Assembly (NCBI GenBank): GCA_029246685.1
Contig: JAQWMR010000016.1
Location: 898,877-962,876, forward strand
Direction: 5' to 3'
DNA length: 64,000 nucleotides
DNA from: Acidimicrobiales bacterium
Lineage (GTDB): Bacteria; Actinomycetota; Acidimicrobiia; Acidimicrobiales; Aldehydirespiratoraceae
Position numbers and translations under genes: made by a program. Below, in pieces: positions 12,138 through 45,615 of the stretch; the first letter of the stretch is position 1; every line of letters begins with the position of its first letter. A model generated the notes under the pieces. It searched no databases, had not been told where the DNA came from, and saw only the letters and a program-made list of their open reading frames with translations.

Positions 12138-13387
12138 CTACCGCGTCGACACGACCTCTCTGGGGTGCGCAGCCACGTGGGTGTCGCGTGGAAGTCCTTG
12201 TGCCGCACACGTCCCGGCCCGGGCGCGGCTGTCGACGATGACGTCGGCTTCGTCGCCGCGCTTGCGCACCGCCCAAACCAAGGGCCACGCGAGGATCGTC
12301 GTCAGACCACCGACCACGTAGCCGCGACCGAGGCCGACGGTCAGATCGTCGGCCGCGCCGCTCAGGCGGCCGAGCCCGGGCTGGCCGCCGACACCACCCA
12401 TCGAGCCGAGCATCGCGTCGAAGCTGATCACGGTCGCTCGATGCTCACTCGGCGCCACGTGATGGACGTATGCCTGACGTACCGGCGTGATCACGCCGAG
12501 CGAACCCGTCACGAGCAGGAACGACGGCACCGCGATCCAGAACGAGTCGGTCACCCCCATCGAGATCGACCCGAGCGACGTGACGACCAAGCCGCCGAGA
12601 ATGATGGTGCTCCGCTTCCCGCAGCGACGGGTCAGCCACTCGACGAGCTGGTTGCCCGCGATCGTGGAGAGCGACATGAACGCGGTGATCACGCCGACCA
12701 CCCAGATCTGGTCGTCCTCGAGAAGGCCGAGCAGGTACGGCTGCGCCGAGTAGAACGCCCAGCCGAGGAAGGCGCCACGGACCACGCCCGCGTCTGTTCA
12801 CGCAGCTCCGCGCCGATGTTGCTGATCTCGAGCGGTCGGGGCGTGAAGCCGAGGTCGTGCATGACTCGGTACGAGAAGAAGAACAGAGCGACCAGCAAGA
12901 CGGCGCGAACGCCGAAGGGAACACCGAGGTCGATCTGGCCGAGGAACCCCCCTCCCGTCGTGCCGACGAGCATCGCCACGCCGGTGATCTACTGGGAGCG
13001 GGCGAAAACGCGATCGAGGTCGCCCTCCATGCCCACCGAGTGCAGGGCATCGACCAGCCACGGCTCCAACGCGCCCGAGTAAAACGTGAATCCGAGGCCC
13101 ATCACGAGCGAGACCGCGGCGAACGCGCCGACGCCCGCTTCGGCCTGCGCCGCGATGAGATAGAGCACTGTCGTGCCTGCGAGCACGACGATGGAGAGCA
13201 GGTAGGACGCTCGCCCACCGACCCTGTCCGCAACAACCCCTGTCGGAATCTCGAACAGCGCCATTCCGGCCGAGAACACCGCGTTGGCGACAAAGACCTC
13301 GCCGATGGACAGGCCGGCATCGAGCAGGAAGAGCGTGTTGACGCCCCAGATCAGCGACGCCGCCAGCGTGTAGAGGCCGGCGAGCAT
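12138..13387 (-). pseudogene. MFS transporter, broken by TAG and a frameshift
   Basis: Three consecutive pieces together make one 12-helix major facilitator protein. Piece 1 (from ATG 13387) runs through LWGVNTLFLL-like helices to DRVFARSQ and stops at TAG (12989-12991). The same frame continues as ITGVAMLVGTTGGG until about 12790, where the continuation (RGAFLGWAFYSAQPYL) is one frame off. Restoring one G in the short G-run there would rejoin the two pieces. With two separate lesions the gene should be inactive. It lies 45 nt upstream of the desaturase on the same strand and diverges from pheA. A sequencing error at each site is the alternative. Confidence 0.8.
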
Positions 13388-23724: not shown

Positions 23725-23958
23725 GTTCCCGTCACGACCGAGTCCACCGCTTCCAGCGCCCCGTCGTCTCGAACCACGGTCCACGGTGGCGCGAACCGGG
23801 CGATCTACGAGGCCGATCCCGTCAGCGAGATTCTCGACGCCGGCATGATCGCCCACGTCGGGGTGCAGACCCCCGACGGCCCGCTCGTGCTGCCGATGGC
23901 CTACGGGCGAGATGACGACACCTTGTACCTCCACGGTGCGGCGGCGAACCACCTGCTC
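23725..23958 (+). pseudogene. PPOX-family flavoprotein, 5' fragment
   Basis: Open frame without an ATG, GTG or TTG start, giving GANRAIYEADPVSEILDAG, then HVGVQTPDGPLVLPMAYGRD and LYLHGAAANHLL. This is the N-terminal half of the pyridoxamine-5'-phosphate-oxidase-like FMN proteins. It ends abruptly at NHLL, where relatives continue with LRxxxxG and the second half. That second half is found 1.4 kb further on at 25344-25811, so the gene has been split by an insertion. Its own start has also been lost or is non-canonical. Confidence 0.8.
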
Positions 23959-23965
23959 GGCAATC

Positions 23966-24190
23966 GTGTGGGGGGTGTTGTCGCTCGGGGATGAGTCCAC
24001 GAAACAGACCGACCTGATGAGAGACCAGACCGAGCTGGTCGAGCAGCAGAACACGATCCTTGCTTGCTACTCTGAGCAAGAAGTTGACTTCGAAGTCCTA
24101 ACGAATGCCTTATTCGGTTTCGCGCTCGACCTCAGCGTGCCCGAACTGAACAACCTTCGCAAGAGATTCCGGGAGTGCAGGGGTGAGTGA
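23966..24190 (+). pseudogene. Truncated first copy of coiled-coil membrane gene
   Basis: In frame from the insert's left edge it reads VWGVLSLGDESTKQTDLMRDQ, followed by TELVEQQNTI and a 45-residue C-terminal domain ending in NNLRKRFREC. The first part is a paralogue of the next gene (GVLIMADESAQQTDLLEEQ), with identity visible at the DNA level around GAGTCC and CAGACCGACCT. Its own N-terminal cytoplasmic part and start are missing, apparently removed at the insertion junction. Its stop overlaps the next start by 8 nt. Confidence 0.5.
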
Positions 24191-24458
24191 CGACGTGGGT
24201 GAATCAACCGAGTACCGACCAGGTCGGGGGCATCAGTGGGCACGCACTGTGTCTGCCGTGGTCGCCGCATTCGCCTTGGCGCTGGGTGTGCTCATCATGG
24301 CCGACGAGTCCGCCCAGCAGACCGACCTACTGGAAGAGCAGATCCATATTGACCAACTGAATTCGATTCAGATTGATCGACAGTCTTTCGAACTGGAAAG
24401 TCAGACCGAGCAAATGCGACAGCAGACCAACCTGATGGAGCAGCAGCAGATGGGGTGA
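24183..24458 (+). CDS. Small membrane protein with coiled-coil tail
   Basis: 91 aa from GTG 24183. Residues 1-20 are polar; about 21-40 form one transmembrane helix (TVSAVVAAFALALGVLIM). The rest is a Gln/Glu-rich coiled coil with repeated QTDLLEEQ, ESQTEQMRQQTNLMEQQ units. No family recognised. It is the intact member of a tandem pair and lies within the lower-GC insert. A single helix plus a heptad tail suggests a membrane-anchored oligomer or tether, but this is an inference. Confidence 0.5.
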   Translation: MSDDVGESTEYRPGRGHQWARTVSAVVAAFALALGVLIMADESAQQTDLLEEQIHIDQLNSIQIDRQSFELESQTEQMRQQTNLMEQQQMG

Positions 24459-24462
24459 GCTT

Positions 24463-24552
24463 GAAATCTTCGTGATGAACGCCGATGGCACCGGGATCTC
24501 CGCAACCGGCCAGGAAGGCACTCCGTCCGACTGGGGCGGACCCGCCAACTGA
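24463..24552 (+). pseudogene. TolB-like beta-propeller C-terminal scrap
   Basis: The 29-codon frame reads EIFVMNADGTGISATGQEG followed by TPSDWGG and a stop. IFVMNADGTG ... DWG is the strand signature of TolB/PD40 propeller repeats. Only one blade remains and no start is present. It shows that the insert has itself been assembled from remnants. The next 180 nt, to 24730, hold no frame that can be supported. Confidence 0.5.
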
Positions 24553-24730
24553 CCGTGTCGGTGCGCTCACGACATGTTCGCTCGAGGTCGTCGAGGAGCA
24601 TGTCGTCGCTGGTGACCTGCGGGCCGCTCTAGGCGTGCTGCGGCTCCCACCCCGGGAGGCGCTGCTCAGGGTCGCCACTAGGTGCACCGACTGACGTGGG
24701 GGCCACGCGAAGTGTGGGAGCGTCCCGGGT

Positions 24731-25075
24731 ATGGGTGAAATTTTCCATTTCGCGTGCGGCGAGTGCGCCGTTGGCTTTGAGGTCTTTGATGGGATCGGGA
24801 TGTTGGGTCCGGGCGTAACGCTGTGCTCGTGCATGGTTTGCAGAAAGCTCGTGACGCCTGAACATCGGCGAAACGAACGTCTTCTTGCCTGTACAGAGTG
24901 CGGAGCGAGCGTTACACCGACGATCAGGGAAGAAGTCGAAGTGATCGTTATCCCTGACGTTCCTGGACTTGCTGCTCACGAAGACCGAAGGGAGAGCGTT
25001 TCCTCTTCGCTCGCGGGCGAGTGTCCGGGTTGTGGTGGGCCTCTAAAAATTGAGTTTGTTGGCCACTGGGATTGA
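24731..25075 (+). CDS. Cysteine-cluster (zinc-ribbon) protein
   Basis: 114 aa, ATG 24731. Four paired cysteine motifs are visible: CGEC near residue 9, CSCMVC near 34, CTEC near 59, and CPGCGG near 100. Together they could bind two zinc ions, as in rubredoxin-like or nucleic-acid-binding ribbons. No hydrophobic segment. No named family recognised. Codon use is markedly AT-richer than the neighbouring chromosome, in line with transfer. It precedes the SHOCT gene by 27 nt. Confidence 0.55.
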   Translation: MGEIFHFACGECAVGFEVFDGIGMLGPGVTLCSCMVCRKLVTPEHRRNERLLACTECGASVTPTIREEVEVIVIPDVPGLAAHEDRRESVSSSLAGECPGCGGPLKIEFVGHWD

Positions 25076-25102
25076 CGCCTTTGGGCGCGTGAAGGAGCAC
25101 GA

Positions 25103-25306
25103 ATGGGTTTGTTTGACGCTGATCTTGAGCGGCTCGCCAAGTTGGGAGAACCCCGGGCTTCGGGCGTGCTCACGGAACAAGAGTTCGCTCAGCTCAAGGC
25201 TGAGGTTCTTGAAAAGCCTGCCCCAGCAGTTTCGCTAGACACGACATTGACTGCCATGGGCGTTCAGGAAAGAAGAAGACAGCCACGCAGACAGCCACAG
25301 ACCTGA
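25103..25306 (+). CDS. SHOCT-domain small protein
   Basis: 67 aa from ATG 25103, with GAAGGAG placed seven bases upstream as a good ribosome site. LERLAKLGEPRASGVLTEQE continuing EFAQLKAEVL is a SHOCT domain, the short oligomerisation module usually found at the end of longer proteins. Here it is almost the whole protein, followed by a basic tail rich in Arg and Gln. Partner unknown; probably the last gene carried on the insert. Confidence 0.55.
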   Translation: MGLFDADLERLAKLGEPRASGVLTEQEFAQLKAEVLEKPAPAVSLDTTLTAMGVQERRRQPRRQPQT

Positions 25307-25343
25307 CACACCCAGGAACATCCAGACACCTTCATGGCGAATC

Positions 25344-25811
25344 GTGCTGCGTAGTTTCAACAAATCGATCGACCGGAGACCGAGATGGGCCATCTACGCG
25401 ACCGTCACTCATGTGGACGGGCTCGTGATGGCCCGCACCCCCTTCCACAACTCGATGAACTACCGATCCGTCGTCGTGCGGGGTCTCGCCACGAAGATCG
25501 AGGAGAAGGACGCCAAGCTCGCCGCGCTCAGGATCATCACGAACCACGTCGTGGAGAACTGGGACCTCGGTCGTCCGGTGAGCGACGTCGACGAGAAGAA
25601 GACGCTCGTGCTCGAGATGCCGCTTGCCGAGGCATCGGCCAAGGTGCGCGCCGGCGACCCGATCGACGAAGAGGACGACATGGCCGGCCCCTGGTGGGCC
25701 GGCGTGATCCCGGTCGAGACGCGAATCGACCGGCCCTACGCCGCCGCTGACCTCACCGGCACCAACCCAGTCCCCGACGCCTACACCGCCCTCGACGGCA
25801 CGGTTCTCTGA
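25344..25811 (+). pseudogene. PPOX-family flavoprotein, 3' fragment
   Basis: GTG 25344 opens a 155-aa frame whose residues from ATVTHVDGLVMARTPFHNSM onward are the C-terminal half of the PPOX-like flavoproteins (NYRSVVVRG, then ASAKVRAGDPIDEEDD and PWWAGVIP). The beginning LRSF continues the NHLL that ends the 5' fragment at 23958. Once joined, the two pieces would give a protein of about 230 residues. Whether a C-terminal half protein is made from the GTG is uncertain; it lacks the FMN-binding first strands. Confidence 0.75.
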
Positions 25812-43874: not shown

Positions 43875-43988
43875 GCCCCCAGGGTAGGACCCGGGCAGTA
43901 AGCGATCAGTGAGACGACGGGTGCGGCCGAGGAGTGAGCGGCTTCGAATAGGTGGGCCGTGCGGATGCCCGCCGCTAACCTCGTCGAC

Positions 43989-44075
43989 GGAAGGTTGCCA
44001 GAGCGGACGAATGGGGCGGCCTCGAAAGCCGTTGTGGCCTCCGGGTCACCATGGGTTCGAATCCCATACCTTCCG
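43989..44075 (+). tRNA. tRNA-Ser (CGA)
   Basis: Acceptor GGAAGGT pairs with ACCTTCC, discriminator G, no encoded CCA. The anticodon loop CTCGAAA gives CGA, reading UCG. Long variable arm and T-loop GGTTCGAATCC are present. Followed within 7 nt by a strong terminator. Confidence 0.96.
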
Positions 44076-44081
44076 CTGCGG

Positions 44082-44122
44082 CCGCCGTCTGCCGGGATAA
44101 CCCCTGGTAGACGGCGGTTTTT
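44082..44122 (+). terminator. Rho-independent terminator of tRNA-Ser (CGA)
   Basis: CCGCCGTCTGCC and GGTAGACGGCGG pair (one G-T) around a 12-nt loop and are followed by five T (44118-44122). Confidence 0.9.
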
Positions 44123-44243
44123 GCGTGTCTTCGGAGAGACGGAGAGATCGGCGCTCGTTCGAACTCCCGTGGCCATCTCAAGTCTGAAGTGAGATATCGC
44201 ACTTTTCGTGGAATCGGACGGGATCCTCGTGCGTCATACCGAC

Positions 44244-44663
44244 ATGATTCAAAAACTCAAGATGCTCCGCGTCCGTAACTCTTGGCCCGCAGCAATGCTC
44301 ATTGGCCTGGCCGTCGTCCTCTTCGCTGCCGCGTGCGGCGACGGAGATTCAGAATTGAACGAGGAGCCGTCCGAGATTTGCGTCGCGGTCACCCCCGAGT
44401 GCGACGACACACCGGAGAAGCCCGCCGAGGACTCAGGTGCTGAAGCTCCCGCGTCGATCTGTGCCGAGGGCACGCCCGACTGCAACGACGCGCTCGACCC
44501 CGACGCTGACACTGACACTGAAGGCCCACTCTCAATTTGCGAAGAGGGCACGCCAGACTGCAACGACGTACTCGATGCCGACGCTGAAGGCCCAGCCTCG
44601 ATCTGCGCCGAAGGCACCCCAGACTGCAACGACGCATTCGAAGCCGAGAGCAGCGGCGAGTAG
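44244..44663 (+). CDS. Small lipoprotein with tandem Cys repeats
   Basis: 139 aa from ATG 44244 (GTG 44208 is an alternative). Signal peptide MLIGLAVVLFAAACG with lipobox. The mature part is acidic and consists of four spaced units: one divergent (EICVAVTPECDD) and three of the form SICxEGTPDCND separated by Asp/Ala/Glu spacers of 10-15 residues. Cysteines lie eight residues apart in each unit, so one disulfide per unit is likely. No known family. The DNA units are repeated too. Exposed on the outer membrane face; function unknown. Confidence 0.65.
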   Translation: MIQKLKMLRVRNSWPAAMLIGLAVVLFAAACGDGDSELNEEPSEICVAVTPECDDTPEKPAEDSGAEAPASICAEGTPDCNDALDPDADTDTEGPLSICEEGTPDCNDVLDADAEGPASICAEGTPDCNDAFEAESSGE

Positions 44664-45029
44664 AGCGACGCCGGTTTCAACCTTGGGCACAAATGGTCTG
44701 GGCTGAAGTAGCACTCTGTGTGCTGCGATGCCCGGCGGATTGGGCCGCCACGAGGTACAGACTCCTCCTCTCTCACCTGGTCAGCGAGCTGCATTGGGGT
44801 TCGAAAGACATCCCATCGCTTCCGCAGCGAACCGCCGCCTGCCGGATCCCGGCAGGCGGCGGTTTTCGCGTGGTCTAAGACCTACACCGCCTCCGCCGAC
44901 GCGCCTGAATCACAGAAACCCGTACCCGCAAACCGGGTCAACTCCAAAGTACTGGCCTGCTCTAGCTGCAACGTCATCATCCGCGTCGCGGGAGTCATCG
45001 TTCAGCCAGGTCAGGAACGACGCGCGGTG
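44664..45029. other. 366-nt stretch with tRNA-end-like repeat and terminator
   Basis: No gene is supported. Bases 44797-44875 resemble the end of tRNA-Ser (CGA) and its terminator: GGGTTCGAA, then CTTCCGC, GCG, CCGCCG and CTGCCGG, then CGGCGGTTTT and GCGTG. The rest (44664-44796 and 44876-45029) shows nothing recognisable apart from the tail end of the SRPBCC fragment. Confidence 0.5.
44831..44866 (+). terminator. Strong hairpin terminator
   Basis: A 15-bp perfect stem (ACCGCCGCCTGCCGG against CCGGCAGGCGGCGGT) with a 3-nt loop and four T. Its outer arms and following GCGTG match the tRNA-Ser (CGA) terminator at 44082. It may end the lipoprotein transcript. Confidence 0.85.
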
Positions 45030-45434
45030 TCAGGCGAGCTCGGGCACTGAGTCGTGGACCACCTGCCCGGTTTGGAGATGGTAGGAGAGGCCGTCGAGCG
45101 CCATACCGAATGCTTTCGTGAGCACGCGCTTGATCATCAATGCCCCGATGAGGGCTCCGAGAGGGCCGTACATCATCTTGTAGTCGACGGAGAACGTGAC
45201 TTCGGTGGTATCAGCAGTCCGTTCGTTCATGCTGATAGTGATGACTGCCTCCTTCATCATCTGGGCTTCGGTCATCTCCATGGTGACGGATTCGCGGTCC
45301 TCCTGGGCGGTGACAGTTTCAACGGCCCCGTTGCCGTCGTGGAATTCGACTCGGCGTGAGGCGCCGACACCGCTGTCGTGCTCGGACCGCACGGTCACCT
45401 TGGCAACATTCGGATGCCAGTCCTGCACTGACTT
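45030..45434 (-). pseudogene. SRPBCC protein lacking its N-terminus
   Basis: VQDWHPNVAKVTVRSEHD, then GVGASRRVEF and VTFSVDYKMMYGPLGALIG with ALDGLSYHLQTGQ form the second to last parts of a polyketide-cyclase/dehydrase-like SRPBCC protein. The first strand and helix (normally some 25 residues with an xxVWxxLxD motif) are absent. The frame continues upstream to a start at 45602 with a basic, non-homologous sequence. The joint is near 45434. Likely inactive. Confidence 0.6.
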
Positions 45435-45615
45435 CAGAGGACCCTGTCCCGGCTCGCGAGCCCGAAAGGGTGCTCGCGACGGTCGGCTGAGACAGCCCGC
45501 CTCACGTACCAACGCGATCACCGCCGTCTCCCGCCCGTCGCGGAGGCGGCGGTGCCGCGTTTGCTCTGACGGGCGGTGCCTGTCGTAGCAGAGCTGCAAC
45601 ATCTACCGTGCTGAT

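Follow-up and report, generated by a model that had tools for sequence, protein, structure and literature searches.

Attachment sites of tyrosine integrases usually follow one plan, with a crossover core in the anticodon loop of a tRNA gene and arm-type sites on either side. The rule by which the tRNA is restored and its 3' fragment is displaced, together with crossovers in the anticodon loop, was described for tRNA islands (PMC4383910). Secondary attachment sites have been reviewed (lambda Int), and mismatched att sites can trap elements (PMC8371274). For the family of elements at tRNA-Arg(ACG) considered here, no description was found in the literature. An insert in a PPOX-type gene is read below, with a probability of roughly 0.8, as the right-hand relic of a small Acidimicrobiales integrative element with a tyrosine integrase targeting the anticodon loop of tRNA-Arg(ACG), which would have been inserted into a secondary site in the PPOX gene and then reduced by deletion.

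The window (the whole stretch of 64,000 nucleotides that was analysed) carries two parts of one gene on the plus strand, both matched by Pyridox_ox_2 (PF12900, Pfam) in the same orientation. The 5' part lies at 23757..23962 (E 9.9e-9; 70-82% DNA identity to relatives up to 23962) and the 3' part at 25392..25811 (E 9.9e-18; 82-86% protein identity to five same-genus genomes). The gene was uninterrupted in 16/16 relatives with the junction region read; relatives with an unbroken copy include the five same-genus genomes. DNA homology of the host to these relatives ended at 23962 (CTGCTCGGCA) and restarted at 25392 (ATCTACGCGACC), and the insert was accordingly delimited as 23963..25391 (plus strand), with 1429 bp of foreign DNA standing where the ancestral gene had a further 17 bp (CCGGCGACGGCCACGAG or a close variant; protein TGDGHE). 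The GC content of the insert was 58.6% versus a window mean of 67.1% (sd 1.8), the lowest of all 1429-bp stretches in the window. The second-lowest stretch (43901-45529, ~61.7%, in 1429-bp steps) begins at a tRNA-Ser(CGA) (43989-44076) and is possibly another island. In the frame of the left PPOX part there is no ATG, GTG or TTG before 23845, which may mean that its decay began some while ago; the gene is inactive, broken by the insertion. Its right neighbour is an epoxide hydrolase gene, which is conserved beside PPOX in the relatives.

The earlier note had recognized the two PPOX halves in the same orientation with about 1.4 kb of lower-GC DNA between them and had seen no transposase, and both statements hold. 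It had also proposed a check, namely whether relatives carry the same intervening genes, and no relative has them; an origin as ancient neighbouring genes was rejected, PPOX being uninterrupted in relatives. Its ends had to be moved to the homology breaks given above. The LRSF taken as the start of the right half belongs, through RRPRW (LRSFNKSIDRRPRW), to the insert, and the AATCGTG taken as a possible target duplication is none: the left copy (23962-23968) spans the left junction and includes a single host base, and the right copy (25340-25346) is insert DNA about 46 bp short of the right junction. Counted over both strands, the window has 8 occurrences of this heptamer.

Searches against Pfam and PHROG found neither a transposase nor an integrase in the insert, and no inverted repeat was found at its ends. 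An IS element or DDE transposon was rejected on the absence of terminal inverted repeats and of a target duplication and on the loss of 17 bp. The reading as a Group I or II intron was rejected as well, since no Rfam match was obtained at E up to 1. The insert DNA is present in a single copy in its own genome, a draft of 20 contigs in which it lies on a 996-kb contig; no second copy was found there. No match was obtained in the plasmid search with the insert or in the phage search with the coiled-coil protein, and viral contigs gave neither an exact match to the attachment arm described below nor a relative of the integrase.

The four small frames seen by the earlier note are to be redrawn as two related membrane/coiled-coil frames, a TolB tail with a terminase-like fragment, a Zn-ribbon-like frame and a SHOCT frame, all on the plus strand. 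The first membrane/coiled-coil frame (23963..24190) is cut by the left junction within its membrane helix and runs on from host DNA at 23912; it had no Pfam or PHROG match. For the second (24183..24458, 91 aa), 50 further genomes of the family gave no relative, and the two are related by a DNA repeat and by protein similarity (E 3e-6). They are followed by the 3' tail of a TolB-like (PD40) gene (24463..24552, EIFVMNADGTG...PAN*), with 81% DNA identity to positions 4187-3988 of locus L055 in genome G072, where the homologous gene matches PD40, and by a 126-bp 3' fragment of a terminase-small-subunit-like gene (24546..24671), with 85% DNA identity to positions 12995-13119 of locus L050 in genome G008. 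The TolB tail and the terminase-like tail form a 200-bp pair, which is joined likewise in G072 and is 81% identical. In G008, the terminase-like protein matches the PHROG terminase small subunit (2.5e-7) and its gene adjoins the integrase gene. The remaining two frames are cargo: a Zn-ribbon-like protein of 114 aa (24731..25075; weak Zn_ribbon_8 match, E 0.0011, below cut-off), relatives of which are absent in 50 other genomes of the family, and a 67-aa SHOCT frame (25103..25306; PF09851, E 1.1e-5, slightly under the curated cut-off), which extends into the attachment arm.

The insert's final 115 bp were found again in four genomes of the Acidimicrobiales and, in part, in the genome of the window itself; they correspond to the right attachment arm of the element (25279..25393, plus strand; 92.5% identity over 120 bp to G001 and 90% to G074). 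In G001 and G074, the homologous arm abuts the 3' half of tRNA-Arg(ACG), cut at the anticodon loop with CTACGGA first. The arm begins with a direct repeat pair, ACAGCCAC-n4-ACAGCCAC (25279..25298, plus strand), whose members are putative arm-type sites of the integrase; they lie at -115/-103 from the crossover, and these distances are identical in the window copy and in the attR of G001 and G074. On the opposite side (attL), the same repeat pair is found at +106/+118 from the crossover of the intact tRNA-Arg in G000 (the genome of the window; contig C5) and in G008. G073 has retained one of the two arm repeats. As a stand-alone marker the repeat pair was rejected, being too frequent by chance (a reversed control pattern matched about equally often), and it was counted only at a fixed distance from a core. 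Three chance pairs were inspected and showed no core or tRNA-Arg at the right distance, and the arm repeats were present in 0/5 genomes whose tRNA-Arg shows no element (empty sites).

At the crossover, the core CTACG (25394..25398, plus strand), i.e. the first five bases of the anticodon loop CTACGGA, is joined to the PPOX gene. The right junction by host homology (25392) and the crossover by the tRNA-joined relatives (25394) are 2 bp apart. The join reads ...GGGCCAT|CTACG|CGACC in the window and ...CTGA|CTACG|GATCAG in the tRNA, and the PPOX genes of relatives mostly read ...GAGAT|CTGCG|CGACC at this site. Against the 7-bp overlap CTACGGA, the relatives' PPOX (CTGCGCG) agrees in 4/7 bases and the product (CTACGCG) in 5/7, and ATCTACG of the arm shares 6/7 bases with ATCTGCG of the relatives' PPOX. 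All relatives have Cys at the position of the Tyr (TAC) in the window, so the A was possibly brought by the element arm.

The layout of the family was assembled from the drafts of G008, G072, G074 and G001, a complete element lying on no single contig. Beside tRNA-Arg, G008 has in order a left arm, an excisionase-like gene (phrog_66), an integrase gene (phrog_1, PF00589), the terminase-like gene and an FG-GAP protein gene, and G072 has the terminase-like gene, an FG-GAP-type protein gene and a right arm. A family element would consist of tRNA-Arg, a left arm with two ACAGCCAC, excisionase, integrase, terminase-like gene, cargo and a right arm with two ACAGCCAC, with the crossover at CTACGGA. 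Between the terminase-like gene and the right arm, the cargo is FG-GAP in some sisters and Zn-ribbon plus SHOCT in the insert. In G175, from another family, the same repeats lie behind tRNA-Arg(ACG) and are followed by the start of an excisionase-like gene. Within the order, close relatives of the integrase at E 1e-60 were found in G008 only.

Besides tRNA-Arg and the PPOX gene, a third partner is joined at the same crossover: in G072 and G073 the arm adjoins not the tRNA but the tail of a TolB-like gene (AT|CTTCG). This region is shared by the two genomes at 92%, from which the join probably goes back to one event. Three partners may mean a tolerant integrase, for which three cases are too few to say.

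Several other sites were observed in the course of these comparisons. The own tRNA-Arg(ACG) of the window's genome (C5:152000-170000, L052, ~12380-12610) is intact and has a left arm of its own with repeats at +106/+118; behind this arm, a 68-bp segment that matches the right arm at 78% immediately precedes a lipoprotein-like gene with a Septum_form domain. The site is another element remnant of this genome, separate from the insert. In G039 (C57:70500-79500, L089, 815-7895), tRNA-Arg(ACG) is separated by about 7.1 kb from a copy of its 3' half that has been displaced; this stretch probably represents a different element, present as a complete island at this tRNA, and was set aside, as it shares no arm. 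In G072 (C58, L055, 3760-8165), TolB-like, FG-GAP-type and lipoprotein-like genes form an array in which the terminase-like gene, or its tail, occurs twice and a right arm once, as if elements had accreted there repeatedly. In G001 (C108, L049, 614-3502, minus strand), a 962-aa frame starting at the ATG in the arm runs across the 3' half of tRNA-Arg (MNHLRIRRSGVRISPGA...) and on into a methyltransferase-like gene; translation of its first part is improbable, and traps of this sort are known from genome annotation.

For the relic, a right arm whose repeats keep precisely the family spacing, the terminase-like fragment, the foreign cargo and a junction on the crossover point were seen directly. 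Its arm has the family repeats at the fixed distance from the crossover core with 90-93% DNA identity, and the terminase-like gene is represented by the 126-bp 3' fragment alone (85% identical). The integrase and excisionase genes, both present in G008, are absent from the window copy, which is therefore called a relic and not a functional member; the insert sits in the PPOX gene and not in a tRNA gene with a displaced 3' fragment. Counting against the reading, one att junction is left, with the left arm, the integrase and the second core absent from the copy, the left coiled-coil frames have no known link to the family, PPOX matches the 7-bp overlap poorly, and the family has yielded no contig with a complete element. 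As the arm is joined to PPOX at CTACG, we infer, as the best and simplest reading, that an integrase inserted the element into a secondary site resembling the tRNA. The integrase would have recombined the right end of the element with the secondary PPOX site (CTGCG in relatives, CTACG in the product), and a later deletion would have taken the left arm, the excisionase, the integrase and 17 bp of the PPOX gene and frozen the relic in place. The loss of the left end by deletion is suggested by the left junction, which cuts through a gene.

The 17 missing bp, a left end within a gene and the lack of a duplication would also be expected if a fragment of a tRNA-Arg island had been pasted into PPOX during break repair with microhomology, without any integrase; such illegitimate recombination would have left the missing bases and the cut-off left end as its scars. 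The 6/7 bases shared by arm and PPOX are enough for such microhomology, and the ragged left end is explained equally well. However, break repair gives no account of why the right end coincides, to 2 bp, with the crossover point of the element itself and not with some other place in it, and it is considered improbable. A further reading, along the lines of the earlier note, is an element in its own right that lacks mobility genes altogether and has its ends at the AATCGTG copies. An insertion that inactivates a gene, with no mobility gene in this copy, still stands, and an insert devoid of integrase and transposase agrees with that proposal. Yet AATCGTG is not at both junctions and those ends have been refuted, the arm that forms the right end belongs to a family encoding an integrase (integrase and excisionase in the relative G008) and the left end is a truncated gene, i.e. 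the copy is a deletion relic, and such an element is very improbable. An assembly chimera, for which the draft state of the genome (20 contigs) might speak, is barely credible, since on the 996-kb contig the insert has a half of the same gene on either side, relatives likewise have the epoxide hydrolase next to PPOX, and the genome contains the insert DNA only once.

With insertion by the family integrase as the preferred reading, a disruption seemingly caused by an element without a mobility gene is traceable to a known mechanism from the attachment arm alone, and the surviving end of the element is recognisable to the base pair. The att architecture (anticodon-loop core of tRNA-Arg(ACG), -115/-103 and +106/+118) provides a search handle for such elements and relics in Acidimicrobiales. 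It is an unlikely, tentative extension that the family consists of very small cargo elements (~4-5 kb) with swapped cargo and an integrase tolerating mismatched cores at CAT|CT(A/T)CG, which would bring about a cassette-like gene turnover in Acidimicrobiales.

Compared by description and in general plan only, the tycheposons of Prochlorococcus and Methylophilaceae (PMC10872708) are likewise tRNA-bordered, with a tyrosine recombinase and variable cargo, whereas the elements here seem smaller and have a terminase-like gene. AICEs (PMC3218068) share the actinobacterial host, the tRNA target and the tyrosine integrase with excisionase, and remnants of them are known; the insert and the sister regions, as far as these were recovered, showed none of the replication or FtsK-like transfer genes of AICEs. 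The family resembles tRNA islands with an anticodon-loop crossover (Islander class A, PMC4383910; PMC8371274) in the integrase beside the restored tRNA, the displaced 3' fragment at the far end, the anticodon-loop crossover and the arm repeats on both sides, but the window copy lies outside a tRNA gene and has kept one end. The mechanism, i.e. tRNA-targeting integration with secondary sites, is already known and the disruption event is of an ordinary kind, the element having probably been captured at such a secondary site. Although a single junction survives in the window copy and the event itself is reconstructed, the locus agrees with secondary-site integration (PMC8371274) in the partial look-alike of the core within a protein gene and in the element being trapped there and decayed.
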